This document shows, piece by piece, positions 5,170 to 62,675 of a stretch of DNA of 64,000 bases (positions within the stretch are counted from its first letter, which is position 1; each line of letters opens with the position of its first letter). The notes under the pieces are model-generated. The model was not told where the DNA came from and searched no databases. It saw only the letters and a program-made list of their open reading frames with translations. Position numbers and translations under genes: made by a program. Source of the stretch: Todiramphus chloris collaris (taxonomy: Eukaryota > Chordata > Aves > Coraciiformes > Alcedinidae); contig JANVCC010000011.1 in assembly GCA_025345505.1 (NCBI GenBank), forward strand, positions 60,055 to 124,054, given 5' to 3'.

Positions 5170-5755
5170 GGATGCATAACAAGCAGAGTGGGCAGCAGAT
5201 CAAGGCTGGGGGGATTCTGCCCCTCTGCTCTGCTCTGGGGAGACCCCCCTGCAGTGCTGGGTCCAGCTCTGGAGTCCTCAGCACAGGAGAGACAGGGACC
5301 TGTTGGAGCGGGGCCAGAGGAGGCCACAGCAATGCTGGGAGGGCTGGAACCCCTCTGCTGGGAGGCCAGGCTGAGAGAGCTGGGGTTGTTCAGTCTGGAG
5401 AAGAGAAGGCTCTGGGGCGACCTTGTGGCCCTTTCAGTGCTGAAAGGGGTCCATCAGAAAGATGGGGACAGACTTTTTAGCACAGTCTGTTGTGACAGGA
5501 CAAGAGGTGCTGGTTTTAAACTAAAAGGGGTCAATTTAGACTAGAGAGGAGGAGGTAATTTTTGATGCTGATGGTTGTGAGATCCTGTCCCAGGTTGCCC
5601 AGAGAGGTGGTCGATGCCCCATCCCTGGAACCATTCCAGGTGAGGTTGGCTGGGGCTGTGAGCAACCTGCTCTAGTTGCAAATGTCCTTGCTCCCTGCAG
5701 GGGGGTTGGACTAGATGAGCTTGAAAGGTCCCTTCCCACCCAAACCATTCTATGA
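5170..5755 (+). mobile_element. CR1 LINE, 5'-truncated
   Basis: 3' part of the reverse-transcriptase ORF plus the 3' end CCCAAACCATTCTATGA. Contains the 184-bp invariant block (5210-5393). Confidence 0.9.
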
Positions 5756-6107
5756 AAGGATGTGAAAATTTGAGAAACCTGGAGATGCTTAACTGTGAAA
5801 ATATCAGAATGAGCCAGCTCAGCTGTCAAAGTGGAAGACAGAATCTTCTAGACAGATATTACCATAAGACCTCTCCCAAAGGAACAGGTGGCTTTTCTAC
5901 TAGACTGCTTGTCCACTCATTTTTTTTGGCCATTTCTGCTACTCTTTTTTTTGAGTGGCAGAAATGATGCTGTCTCGTGGTTCTTTCCTGAGGTTTTTGG
6001 GGTTTTTTTTGTCCTCAGCATTAAGAGCAGTTTCTGTTGGGGAAGTCTAACCTGAGATTTTTAGAATGAAAGCTAACAAATTTGTTACTAACCAACATCT
6101 AGTGCTA

Positions 6108-15849: not shown

Positions 15850-16785
15850 AATCAAAGAATGGTTTGGGTTGGAAGGGACCTTTCAAGCTCATCTAGTCCA
15901 GCCCCCCTGCAGGGTTGCTCAGAGCCCCAGCCAACATCACCTGGAATGTTTCCAGGGATGGGGCATCGACCACCTCTTTGGTCAACCTGGGACAGGGTCT
16001 CACCACCATCAGCACCCCCAAAAAAAAAATAAAAAAAAATCTGTTCTCTCTCTACTCCAGATTTCCCTCTTTTGGTTTAAAACCATCACACCTCATCCTG
16101 TCGCTAAGATCCTTGTAAAAGAGTCCCTCTCCATCTTCCTGACAGGTCTCTTTCAGTACTGAAAGGCCACAAGAAGGGCTCCCCAGAGCCTTCTTTTCTG
16201 AACAAAGCTGAACAACCCCAGCTCTCTCAGCCTGGCCTCCCAGCAGAGGGGTTCCAGCCCTCCCAGCATTGCTGTGGCCTCCTCTGGCCCCGCTCCAACA
16301 GGTCCCTGTCTCTCCTGTGCTGAGGACTCCAGAGCTGGACCCAGCACTGCAGGGGGGTCTCCCCAGAGCAGAGCAGAGGGGCAGAATCCCCTCCCGGACC
16401 TGCTGCCCACGCTGCTCTGGATGCAGCCCAGGATGCCACTGGCTTTGGGGCTGTGAGCATACGTTGCCAGCTCATGTCTAGCTTTTTACCCCTCAGCACC
16501 CCTGAGTCCTTGTCCGCAGGGCTGCTCTCCATCCCTTCATTCCTCAGCCTGGAGTGATACCAAGGCTTGCCCCAGCCCAGATGCAGGACCTTGCCCTTGG
16601 GGTTGTAGTGCCTCATGAGATTCCTACAGGCCCACTTCTCCATCTTGTCCAGGTCCATCTGTTTGACGTCCTGTCCCTTAGGCATGTCACCTGCTCCGCT
16701 CCACTTGGTGTCATCTGCAAGCTCGTTGAGGGGGCCCTCGATCCGTCTGTCTGTGTCATTGATGAAAATATTGAACAGCACTGTT
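15850..16785 (-). mobile_element. CR1 LINE, 5'-truncated
   Basis: About 0.94 kb. The minus-strand translation shows RT pieces (FNIFIND..., ADDTKWSG). Includes the invariant block (16208-16391). An A-rich expansion (16018-16040) interrupts the 3' part. Confidence 0.92.
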
Positions 16786-20043: not shown

Positions 20044-42054
<22,011 letters not shown>

Positions 42055-48979: not shown

Positions 48980-49915
48980 TTAAATGTCTTTGTCAGTCAT
49001 CTGGATGAGGGGATCAAGGCACCCTCAGTAACTCTGCAGATGACACCACGTTGGGTGGGAGTGTTGATCTGCTGGAGGATCAGGAGGCTCTACAAGAGGG
49101 CTCAGGATGGATCGATGAGGTGAGGCCAATGGGATGAGGTCCAAAAAGGCCAAAGGCTGGGTCCTTCTCCTGGATCACAACAACCTCCTGCAACACTCCA
49201 AGCTTGGGGAAGAATGGTTGGAAAGTGCCCAGCAAAAAGGGACCTGGGGGTGTTGGTTGACAGGTGGCTGAAGATGATCCAGCGCGTGCCCAGGTGGCCA
49301 AGAAGGCCACCAGCATCCTGGCTTGGATCAGCACTAGTGTGGCCAGCAGGACTAGGGCAGGGATCATCCCCTTGTAATGGGCATGGGGGAGGCTGCCCCT
49401 CAAATGCTGGGTTCAGTTTTGGGCCCCTCACTCCAAGAAGGACATTGAGGGGCTGGAAGGTGTTGACGGAAGGGCAACGATGCTGGGGAAGGGTCTAGAG
49501 CACAAGTGTTTTGAGGAGCGGCTGAGGGACCTGGGGTTGTTGAGCCCACAGCAAAGGAGGCTCAGGGGAGACCTTCTCACTCTCCACAACTCCCTGCAAG
49601 GAGGTTGGAGCCAGGTGGGGGTCGGTCTCTTCTCCCAAGGAACAAGTGACAGAACAAGAGGCAGTGGCCTCAAGGTGTTTCAAGGGAGGTTCAGGTTGGA
49701 CAGAAGGAACTTATTTCTTCTGCAAAAGGGTTGTGAAGGGCTGTCCCAGGCTGCCTAGTGCAGTGGTGGAGTCCCCATCCCTGGAGGGGTTTCAAAGCCA
49801 TGGAGCTGTGGTGCTGAGGGCCATGGTTTAGTGGTGACCTGGCAGTGCTGGGTTAATGGTTGGACTGGATGATCTTAAAGGTCTTTTTCTGACTAATATG
49901 ATTCTGTGATTCTAT
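48980..49915 (+). mobile_element. CR1 LINE, second subfamily
   Basis: Opens with the RT segment CATCTGGATGAGGGGATCAA and the GCAGATGACACCA (ADDT) codons; ends GATTCTGTGATTCTATTT, showing the terminal 8-bp repeats typical of CR1. Confidence 0.92.
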
Positions 49916-57745: not shown

Positions 57746-59964
57746 TGCTGGCGGGATCGGCTGGCTAGAAGCATCCGCAGGTGCTGGCCAGAGGGGAAAA
57801 CCTCACTTTCTAGTAACCTACTCCAAAAAGAACCAGATGGCCGGCGCTGGCGTGGCTGGGATGCTGCTGGGCTGGTGCTACCAGTGATGCTTGTGGGTTG
57901 ACCTCCTGAGAAGTCAGGATCCAGCAGCTCCCAAAGTCCCACTTTCCCTCTAGAGCTCTCCCTTTTTCTTCCAAAGGTGGAGCTGCTGCACGGCTGGGAC
58001 ATCAAGGGGGTCCAGAGCACAACTATGGGGGCTGTAAGTGACCCATGCACTGGTGGCAGTGGTGTGAGCAGCTTTGGGAGCACTCAACCCAAACACGAGC
58101 CCCAAAGCCGTGCCCAGGGCGTCAAGGCCTGGGAGTCTCCTGCCCCACACAGAGGTGAGATGGGGAGATGAGATGTTTGAGGGATGCAGGACCTTCCTCT
58201 GGTGCGAGGGATGGGTCCAAGGAGGTGTTTAATACCACAACAGGATCTTGCTGGGGGTGAGCACCAGGCTCACACCACTGACAGGAGCATACATCAGTAA
58301 CAACACAAATTTTAAGCATCTAAGTGCTCGTCTGAATTGAATCTCTGAGTGGAGTCAGTTATCCTGTGGGTTAAAAGCAAGGTCTGACCTGACTCCTGCT
58401 GGAGGTAAGAATGAAACTATTATCAGCTCTGGAGACAGATGGGCTTAAGTCTCCCGTGCTCAAAGGAAAAGCTTCTGGAGTTGTTGCTGACCATATTGGA
58501 ACCCTTGGCTCTGCTCAAGACATCCGAGGCTTGGCAAACCTGTTGGGAAAAAAAAAAAACCCCAACAAACACAGGAGGTTAAGAGCAGAGGGGAGCCTGG
58601 GATACACTCCTGTGCCGGGCTGGCTGCCGGCAGAGACACGGTCCACGGTGCCCAGCCAGATTTGGAAATCACAGACTGTGGGGAAACTGGGAGGGCAAAT
58701 TACTCAGGGAGATCAGGAGCCAAGAATCATCCAACCACTCCTACCCACTCCCCTTCTTCCGTGAAGCAAGGGCCAGTCAGGAATAGCTGTATGTTCTATA
58801 TCTGTATATCCATGCGCAGATGTGGGGTGTGCCCGGGCAAACGCGGCGTGTTGCCTGCAGCAGGCAGGATTTGGACGTGGGCAAGGATGTGTTTCTATCA
58901 AGCCAAGCCTGAGGTGGGAGCCCGGAGCCTCTCCCAAAGCCTTATTTTTGCTGCTGGGGGAAGGAAATGGTACATTTCCTACAGCTCTGCTTGCTCCCTG
59001 GAAACCATCAGGCCTGAGACAACTTGGGAAGCGCGTTCGCCAGTGGCTGGCTGGCGTTACTCAGCTTAAAATACGAGCCAGGTTATTTATAATCAAGGCC
59101 GGCCTGATAATAAAAATGTTTATCAAGCACATGGCAGCCCTTCATAGAGAAACCCCTCAGCTATTCCAGCAGGCTTTTCAATGTAAAGCCCTTTTCCCTC
59201 CCCTCCCTCCCGTTCTGGCTTTACTGTGGGGAACGGCAGAAGGAAATAAATTAATCCAGCAGCACACGGGTCAATTAGGAAGGAGTTAAACTGAGATCAC
59301 CCCATCAGCCGGGGCACAGCGCAGCCCGCGCGGCCCTCCACGCTGCTTATTGGGCTGCGAAACAGCCCGGTCACCCTAAATATTTCAGAGGCATGCTATT
59401 TGGAAATCAGGGGTTGAGGCAGATACTTTGTTCTGAGATGAATTACAAAAAAAGCTCCTTTAGGAAGAAATTTGGTTGGAAATTTCGATTTACTCTGGGC
59501 TACCCACCGCTGTTGGGCTGCCCCTCTGTAGGTCGACATCTGCCATAGTTGGGTGTAAACTATTCTCAAAGCTTTTCTGAGGTGTTATCGTGAGCTCTGC
59601 CATGGGGCTGGCATAATTTGTCTCCTTGACAGCAAAAGGACATGCTGCTGAGTGAAATAAATAGATGCTCTGTTTAAAATGGCAGCGCGTTTTCATGGGG
59701 TGCAAAATGCAGAGCGCTGCACTGATGGGTTCCGCTTGGCTGCAGTCCCTGGCCGGCTGGCAGATAAGACATCAAGTTTATTCCAAGAAGGAAAAGTGGG
59801 AAACAACAACAAAATAAAGAACAGAAATAAAACACCCCAGGGAGGAAACGTCAGCGCAGCGCATGTGTTTGTGACAGACGGGCGGAAATGGCAGGAGGAT
59901 GGGATTGCAAACTGGGAGAGGTACCATTAAAACTGAGTGGTGCAAGTGACATGTCTGAGGGACA

Positions 59965-60789
59965 GGATCCATCCAGAGTGATGTGGACAAGCTGGAGAAG
60001 TGGGCCTCTGTAAACTTCCTGGGGTTCAACAAGGCCAAGTGCAAGGTCCTGAACATGGGTCAGGGCAACCTCTGGTATCAGTCCAGGCTGGGGGATGAAG
60101 GGGTGCAGAGCAGCCCATGGAGAAGGACTTGGGGGAGCTGGGGAGTGAAAGGCTGGATGTGAGCCGGCAGCACATGCGCACTCACAGCCCCAAAGCCAAT
60201 GGCATCCTGAGCTGCATCCAGAGAAACGTCAGGGAGGGGATTCTGCCCCTCTGCTCTGCTCTGGGGAGACCCCCCTGCAGTGCTGGGTCCAGCTCTGGAG
60301 TCCTCAGCACAGGAGAGACAGGGACCTGTTGGAGCGGGGCCAGAGGAGGCCACAGCAATGCTGGGAGGGCTGGAACCCCTCTGCTGGGAGGCCAGGCTGA
60401 GAGAGCTGGGGTTGTTCAGCCTGGAGAAGAGAAGGCTCAGGGGAGACCTTCTTGTGGCCTTTCAGTACTCCAAGGCACCTGTCAGAAAGATGGAGACAGC
60501 CTTTTGAGCAGGGCCTGTTGTGACAGGACAAGGGGTGATGGTTTTAAACTAAAAGAGGGAGATTCAGGCCACAGAGAAGGAAGAAATTTTTTATGCTGAG
60601 GGTGGTGAGACCCTGTCCCAGGTTGCCCAGAGAGGTGGTCGATGCCCCATCCCTGGAACCATTCCAGGTGAGGTTGGCTGGGGCTGTGAGCAACCTGCTC
60701 TAGTTGCAGATGTCCCTGCTCCCTGCAGGGGGGTGGGACTGGATGAGCTTGAAAGGTCCCTCCCAACCCAAACCATTCCATGATTTTGT
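59965..60789 (+). mobile_element. CR1 LINE, 5'-truncated
   Basis: About 0.82 kb ending CCCAAACCATTCCATGA. Includes the invariant block (60236-60419). Its 3' part closely resembles the copy at 5170. Confidence 0.92.
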
Positions 60790-61776
60790 GAAAGGGTGTA
60801 AAAAATTAATATGAAACCTTTTAAAAGGGGCCAGCAGCACCCACCAATGCATGTGGCTACGAGGTGTGTGCAGACTGCATCTCCACAGCTCAGTACCTCT
60901 GTTTTATGGCAGGAAAATGTTATTTTGGGAAAGTACTTGTATCTGGGAGAAGAATAATTAAATTTTTATGGGTCTTCACCCTGGGAAACGATGGCCTGGG
61001 AGAGCTGTGAAACCCATGTCAAAGGAAATATTTGTCCTGGCATGTTTCTCCAGCAGGTTGGAGGATGCTGGTGCCACCCATGGGACATGTACAGTAAAAG
61101 GAGCCTCCTGTGAGACCTGGGGGCTCTTCCATCACCCACCATGGAGGTTTTATCTTCTCTATGTGGCCTTCCCCAGATTCAAGCACAGGGACACTGAGAC
61201 TGAACCCCCAGAGCTTCTGCCTATCTGCCTCCACAGCAGCAGTAGCCATGGGAGACCCTCTGTGGGAGATGCTGGATTCCTGTGTCATGTGAGACATGGG
61301 AAGAGTTTCAAAAATCCTTTGTTTCATACCCAAAACCCAAGGCTTTGGCTAGGACAAGGGAAATCTCCACCACGCACTGAACCTCTGCTCCGTGACAGCT
61401 TCTCGATGTAACGACCCCTCGGGGGATTTTTCAATCCATGGAGAGAGCCCAGATGGAGGAAAATCTGTAAGTTTCAGTCTCTGCTCTGAATTGCATCTGA
61501 TTGCTACCGAAAATGGAGGGAAATCCGTGATTTGGCTCCCCTGAGCCAGGGGCTGAAGCTGTTCCCTTGTCGCATCCTCTCTCTTGTTCCACCTGTTCAG
61601 CTTTGCTGGCTGGAAATAACCTCCTGGCTCCTCAGCTCACTATTTCCACCCAGTGTCACCAAGATTCATACCATCTCACAAAAAAAAAACCACCCCACCA
61701 GTTCACAAACAAATAAATACACCAAGCCCCACAAATCCTGTGTCGGCATCAATTTCTTACCCAGAGAAAACATTTC

Positions 61777-62675
61777 CATAGAATGACAGAATGGTTTGGG
61801 TGGGAAGGAACATTTCAAGCTCATCCAGTCCAAACCCCTTGCAGGGAGCAGGAACATCTGCAGCTAGAGCAGGTTGCTCAGAGCCCCAGCCAACCTCACC
61901 TGGAATGTTTCCAGGGATGGGACATCAACCACCTTTCTGGGCAACTTGGGACAGGGTCTCACCACCCTCAGTGTCAACAATTTCTTCCTTCTCTCTGGTC
62001 TAAATCTCCCTCTTTTAGTTTAAAACCATCACCCCTTGTCCTGTCACAACAGGCCCTGATAAAAAGTCTGTCCCCACCTTTCTTACAGGTCCCTTGGAGT
62101 AGTGAAAGGCCACAAGAAGGTCTCCCTGGAGCCTTCTCTTCTCCAGGCTGAACAACCCCAACTCTCCCAGCCTGGCCTCCCAGCAGAGGGGTTCCAGCCC
62201 TCCCAGCATTGCTGTGGCCTCCTCTGGCCCCGCTCCAACAGGTCCCTGTCTCTCCTGTGCTGAGGACTCCAGAGCTGGACCCAGCACTGCAGGGGGGTCT
62301 CCCCAGAGCAGAGCAGAGGGGCAGAATCCCCTCCCTGACCTGCTGCCCACGCTGCTCTGGATGTAGCCCAGGATGCCATTGGCTTCTGGGTTGTGAGTGT
62401 ATGTTGCCAGGTCATGTCCAGCTTTTCACCCCCCAGCTCCCTCAAGTCCTTGTCCACAGGGCTGCTCTGCATCCTTTCACATCCAGCCTGGACTGATTCT
62501 TGCACTCAGCCTTCTTGAACTTCATGAGGTTCACAGTGGCCTTATTCTCCAGCTTGTCCAGGTCCCTCTGGATGGATGCTGTCCCTTCAGTGTGTCAACT
62601 GCACCACACAGTTTGGTGTTGTCTGCAAACTTGCTCAGAGTGCCTGCAATCTCACTGCCCATGTTGCTGACAATA
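61777..62675 (-). mobile_element. CR1 LINE, 5'-truncated
   Basis: About 0.9 kb, beginning CATAGAATGACAGAATGGTT on +. Includes the invariant block (62148-62331) with two substitutions. Confidence 0.92.

Follow-up and report, generated by a model that had tools for sequence, protein, structure and literature searches.

The units of chromosome-specific satellite DNA evolve in concert, being homogeneous inside a chromosome or region and different between them. Non-allelic gene conversion is a known process with a comparable signature in dispersed repeats, as described in two sources (PMC6598467, PMC4384637). On the neo-X of Drosophila miranda, two linked mutations form a derived ISX haplotype that spreads under selection for dosage compensation complex binding (PMC4384637), and conversion between Alu elements is reported to be elevated at distances below 10 kb and at particular hotspots (Aleshin and Zhi 2010, as cited in PMC6598467).

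The CR1 elements of Todiramphus chloris collaris may offer a further case. Comparison of their sequences suggests that a segment of ∼185 bp has been homogenized separately in at least three scaffold regions, probably through repeated non-allelic gene conversion between copies that lie near one another. The likeness to ISX (Ellison and Bachtrog 2015; PMC4384637) lies in dispersed transposon copies on one chromosome and in the probable non-allelic gene conversion; unlike ISX, the CR1 segment is homogenized in at least three regions, has its own version in each, and has no assigned function. As with neighboring Alus, nearby retrotransposon copies are more alike than expected, but the near-identity in CR1 spans megabases and involves a single segment of the element, the 3' flank showing nothing similar (compared with PMC6598467). 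The segment resembles chromosome-specific satellite DNA in being homogeneous regionally, with versions that differ between regions, but its units are interspersed single segments, and no head-to-tail junction of blocks was present in the window or in the extracted loci. The literature searched, which included few subscription journals, held no description of region-specific homogenization of a CR1 segment.

Results

A nearly invariant 184-bp block in five CR1 copies

The window is the whole stretch of 64,000 nucleotides that was analyzed, corresponding to positions 60055-124054 of scaffold C2 in an assembly of 1.17 Gb and 889 contigs. A first-pass annotation had marked within it a 184-bp block shared by five copies of an element that, following that annotation, we take to be CR1; the element is homologous to 91 proteins, some of them named as bird RNA-directed DNA polymerases and some carrying PF00078. 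The annotated coordinates, strands, and length were correct (Table 1): the block spans 184 bp without indels in all five copies, four are identical throughout, and the fifth is set apart by substitutions at block positions 165 and 171. The diverged flanks that had been reported were also confirmed, with the right flanks of the five copies differing by 9.0-26.6%. The window blocks contained 2 private substitutions, compared to the 58 expected at the right-flank rate (Poisson P 8e-23), and the proportion of variable sites among the five copies was 2/184 in the block versus 128/306 in the right flank (Fisher's test, P 3e-29). The first CR1 copy has only ∼40 bp of CR1 sequence 5' of its block, and the 3' flank of the third has the most private substitutions of the five. 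Two of the CR1 copies, with right flanks otherwise ∼12% apart, have an exact run of 97 bp in common (5584-5680 = 60612-60708), and a second part of CR1 may have been locally copied too. Two older CR1 copies share an exact 84-bp run (22788-22871, minus strand, = 49760-49843), the element coordinates of which are nearly equal to those of the 97-bp run.

Table 1. CR1 copies, their blocks, and the assembly gap in the window (window positions).
Feature	Position	Strand	Remarks
Homogenized block, copy 1 (C2-C5 version)	5210..5393	+	Identical to three other window copies
CR1 copy with block 1	5170..5758	+	From BLAST and alignment to other copies
Homogenized block, copy 2	16208..16391	-	Identical
CR1 copy with block 2	15850..16700	-	Ends approximate
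Homogenized block, copy 3	41053..41236	+	Identical
CR1 copy with block 3	40780..41600	+	Ends approximate
Homogenized block, copy 4	60236..60419	+	Identical
CR1 copy with block 4	59950..60819	+	Ends approximate
Homogenized block, copy 5	62148..62331	-	Two substitutions
CR1 copy with block 5	61788..62600	-	Ends approximate
Similar sixth CR1 copy with an interrupted block site	33770..34250	-	From alignment; 5' end approximate
10-N assembly gap replacing the block of the sixth copy	34129..34138	.	Also on scaffold C3

Region-specific versions of the block

When the window block was used as query against the whole genome, 25 of the 40 best-scored matches (3734 candidates) were 100% identical over 184 bp, and all 25 were located on scaffolds C2-C5, both members of scaffold pairs included; with ∼40 matches scored per search, the counts from these whole-genome searches are lower bounds. 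A version distinct from that of C2-C5 was found on scaffold C23, where two copies 1.08 Mb apart have blocks that differ at 1 of 190 positions, indels common to both, and right flanks that are 12.4% divergent. Among the best 40 of 3323 matches to the C23 block, 17 copies (the query included) were 96-100% identical, all of them on C23 between 5.5 and 7.8 Mb and all covering the entire 190 bp or all but one base, and the top match on any other scaffold was 92%. As a control, the adjoining 191 bp from that C23 copy were used as query and identified no other copy above 92% among the best 40 of 4640; the 39 non-self matches were distributed over 16 scaffolds, with 5 on C23. Eleven of the 91-92% matches to the C23 block cluster on scaffold C38. 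Nine of these, which were retrieved via likeness to the C23 version and not to one another, have blocks that differ mutually by 0.56% on average; their divergence is 0.0% at block positions 1-120, compared with 15-40% in the part of the 3' flank that starts at position 221. The corresponding within-region block divergence for C23 was 0.93%, and differences between regions averaged 3.9-7.0%, plus indels. The regions C2-C5, C23, and C38 thus each have their own version, marked by region-specific substitutions and indels and near-identical among copies 1-3 Mb apart. The listed copies are grouped in parts of scaffolds, a clustering seen at scaffold level, and the median spacing of the C23 copies is ∼95 kb (22 places). 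Scaffold C21 was left out of the count of regions, since its copies L051 and L105 have similar flanks as well (2.6%). Copies L058 (C5) and L071 (C2) have a common 5-bp expansion near the block start in otherwise identical blocks, and in the CR1 copies L066, L072, and L075 the apparent 3' end directly follows the opening portion of the block, or hardly more than its start, as in internal deletions.

Divergence of the block and its flanks

Divergence was plotted by position, a check suggested in the first-pass annotation, for the main set of 50 distinct copies (29 on C2-C5, 12 on C23, and 9 on C38). In 15-bp bins the within-region divergence was 0-4.7% across positions 1-195, low values being favored by the selection of some C2-C5 and most C23 copies on block similarity. 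Over the block as a whole, divergence was 1.82% within regions and 5.61% between them (a contrast equaled in 0 of 500 label shuffles), and the nearest neighbor came from the same region for 50/50 copies. In the 3' flank (positions 205-480) the values were 23.4% versus 23.9% (196 of 500 shuffles); the nearest neighbor there was still regional for 36/50 copies. The 5' side (positions -40 to -4) gave 15.9% within and 22.7% between regions (7 of 500 shuffles) with regional nearest neighbors for 46/50 copies, a weaker signal than that of the block. Both the 5' structure and the 3' nearest neighbors count against the conversion reading. Trees of the block and of the 3' flank conflict in the same copies, the former requiring 2 changes of region, the minimum, and the latter 9. 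The 3' edge is sharp and lies near position 195, with within-region divergence increasing from 4.7% at 181-195 to 15.6% at 196-210; from that bin onward the divergence is similar within and between regions. The 5' edge is less abrupt (within regions, 3.6% at 1-15, rising to 13.9% at -19 to -1 and to 21.6% beyond). The regional versions are most apparent at positions such as 121-135, where divergence was 0.76% within regions versus 19.3% between them, while positions 61-90 are low between regions too (1.1%). The tree set excludes right-flank-selected copies that do not span the block (L031, L032, L035, L040, L042, L044, L045, L056, L057, and L059-L062), the left-flank-selected copies L066, L069, L072, L075, L078, and L080 were left out (internal deletions, a gap with inversion, or a partial or absent block), and L006 was dropped as the other haplotype of L001.

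Copies selected solely by their flanks (19 on C2-C5 and 5 elsewhere) behaved similarly. Their divergence at positions 121-135 was 0.7% within C2-C5 versus 16.4% against other scaffolds; the values were 3.05% versus 6.96% for the whole block and 21.1% versus 18.0% for the right flank. With the right flank of a C2 copy as query, the best copy besides its C3 counterpart was 92% identical among the matches listed, so the copies are old. Of the 19 copies chosen by their right flank, 18 had a right-flank distance to the consensus of 4.6-8.7%, and the remaining one had 11.3%. Flank-selected copies that span the block had 0 to 13 substitutions relative to the window version, mostly fewer on C2-C5. Three C2-C5 copies had more differences, and these count against conversion: L039, L052, and L070, with 13, 8, and 8 substitutions, respectively, were omitted from the C2 consensus row of the AT-to-GC test described below and kept in the divergence, bin, tree, and flank-selected analyses. 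When each copy was assigned to its best-matching version, 23/23 flank-selected copies on C2-C5 matched that of C2, L031 and L032 only narrowly and at lengths too short for a firm assignment; L059 and L079 matched the C23 version, L078 that of C38, and L057 that of C21. The version of the copy's own scaffold was thus matched wherever one is known, and L043 (C57), L067 (C124), and L056 (C30) have none. Truncated copies varied. L031 retains the last 94 bp of the block and is 15% divergent, L032 retains the last 55 bp and is 9% divergent, and these C2/C5 copies are not homogenized; a C23 copy with 115 bp of the segment is homogenized (2 differences), and L062, which is missing the initial 18 bp, differs at 1 of 166 positions.

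A sixth copy, assembly gaps, and the second haplotype

The window holds a sixth CR1 copy in which the CR1 sequence ends ∼10 bp ahead of the block and restarts directly after it, the interval being occupied by the sole N run within the 64-kb window (Table 1). Scaffold C3 apparently represents the second haplotype; it differs from C2 by 109 SNPs across the aligned window, or 0.17%. The C3 counterparts of the five window blocks have 0, 0, 1, 0, and 2 differences, respectively, the one in the third being an A/G difference at block position 74, and the gap in the sixth copy is identical. A second 10-N gap lies inside the block of a C38 copy, which makes at least two copies with an assembly break at this site; a third gap, beside L047/L053, is outside the block. 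In L078 taken with L083 (C38:10308000-10310041), a block is followed by 10 N and then by an inverted block with its left flank, the gap being located between two CR1 copies of opposite orientation. N runs of 243 (L011:6936-7178) and 988 (L015:4013-5000) adjoin the window-matching region on C3. The scaffold pairs C2/C3, C4/C5, and, by match positions, C14/C15 look like two haplotypes side by side. One version is common to C2/C3 and C4/C5, which may belong to one chromosome. Drop-out of GC-rich sequence was considered as a cause and rejected: stretches of 70-81% GC were assembled in the window, and GC-rich blocks (0.62-0.69) are also found on other scaffolds (L043, L051, L055, L067, and L079).

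Base composition and protein relatives

The GC content of the block is 0.66, versus 0.50-0.52 in the flank, and differences from old copies in the AT-to-GC direction appear overrepresented in the block when compared with the flank. The P values for this excess were 0.0014-0.096 in nine non-independent rows (above 0.05 in 2/9) and, for a second set, 0.0016-0.063 in seven non-independent rows (above 0.05 in 1/7). The reverse-transcriptase reading in the block is split across different frames, whereas penguin and pelican proteins carry it unbroken. At the protein level in other birds and metagenomes, the block stood at 46% against the query versus 52% for the right flank, pooled over 50 hits, and the block was the better of the two in 13 of the 50 hits with enough of both; the block thus shows no greater similarity to the query than the right flank does, a result that we count against the conversion reading. 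Pairwise comparison of eight crane proteins gave less divergence in the block than in the left part for 19/28 pairs, or for 15/15 pairs when P0038 and P0078 are removed. Three pelican and four penguin proteins gave, respectively, a block that differs less than either side in 3/3 pairs and a mixed outcome; all three of these groups are small. Bird-like CR1 proteins are also encoded on public metagenome contigs (JGI, ENA), which are apparently host DNA. Pattern scans of viral and genome collections yielded no bird CR1 DNA, and scans for tRNAs and tandem repeats revealed nothing relevant.

Discussion

The results fit a segment that evolves in concert inside a region and independently between regions, and the 3' part of the same copies does not do so. 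The first-pass annotation had offered gene conversion, a constrained RNA element, and gap filling with a repeat consensus; the first of these is the best supported, with the added feature of a separate homogenized version for each scaffold region. The copying would consist of the repair of a break in one copy with another copy of the same region as template, and breaks or strand exchange may be concentrated in the GC-rich segment. GC-biased repair could have raised the GC content of the segment, although the AT-to-GC signal is weak. A minimum length of homology might be needed, which would fit the non-homogenized L031 and L032; the C23 copy with 115 bp is contrary to it. Near-identity at a spacing of ∼95 kb, compared to less than 10 kb for Alus, would imply a high rate of conversion, a point against this reading. 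The within-region divergence on C38 and C23 is several times the difference between C2 and C3, so we infer that the turnover is recent and continuing. More speculatively, and with low confidence, the CR1 segment could be a built-in conversion hotspot, in which frequent breaks lead neighbors within 1-3 Mb to be repeatedly overwritten and give each region a CR1 barcode; the donor would perhaps be an unassembled chromosome-specific array of blocks, for example at a centromere.

The foremost alternative, which we consider improbable, is an assembly artefact, in which unresolved repeat reads were collapsed, one sequence was written into many loci, and the hole in the sixth copy was left as 10 N. 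The gap at the same block on both C2 and C3, the second gap inside the C38 block, and the 25 exactly identical places on C2-C5, haplotype pairs included, are in its favor, but such gaps are also expected where repeats of ∼200 bp are truly identical and reads are short. Our own first conclusion was filling of gaps with one repeat consensus, and it was abandoned once region-specific versions appeared: instead of a single genome-wide sequence there are at least three, and different regional versions are not expected from either constraint or genome-wide consensus filling. Similarly, a version with its own indels in each region over 1-3 Mb is unexpected from a genome-wide collapse or a gap filler, and flanks that are equally or more divergent were assembled free of gaps at nearly all loci compared. 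The variation inside the block also resembles real mutation, as its only CpG (positions 100/101) varies in at least 9 of 28 aligned copies, with position 171 varying more, and the one A/G difference between C2 and C3 in the five window blocks is about that predicted from the 0.17% difference between these scaffolds. A subtler assembly effect is possible, and the exact identity may be overstated. If the pattern were an artefact, it would warn that interspersed repeats can acquire a spurious, region-specific identity during assembly.

Purifying selection on a functional RNA, a protein part, or a binding site within the block is very unlikely. The very low divergence within regions and the low values at positions 61-90 between regions are what such constraint would produce, but the regional versions differ from one another by substitutions and indels, the reverse-transcriptase frames are broken in the block, and the two C2/C5 copies truncated inside it diverge normally. 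The constrained RNA element that had been proposed thus gains no support: the predicted fold of the block is no more stable than those of shuffled sequences (z-scores of +0.55 with RNA and +0.28 with DNA parameters), and an Rfam search of the block gave no match at the gathering threshold. Least credible of all is a set of local young subfamilies, with recent insertions of a region's own CR1 variant, for although the listed copies cluster in parts of scaffolds, have a regional version in common, and show some regional structure on the 5' side, a new insertion brings its 3' flank along, and the mean divergence of that flank is without regional structure, which contradicts local transposition, as do flank queries from C2 and C23 that identified no copy above 92% besides the C3 counterpart among the matches listed.

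If region-wise gene conversion is the correct reading, dispersed retrotransposon copies do not merely decay independently of one another, and neighbors can keep one part of the element young. Dating on the basis of divergence would then be wrong for the homogenized CR1 segment. Bird genomes are reported to be without PRDM9 (PMC10781513), and a short sequence that focuses conversion at numerous mapped sites would therefore provide a direct handle on the sites of breaks and on the reach of non-allelic repair in birds.
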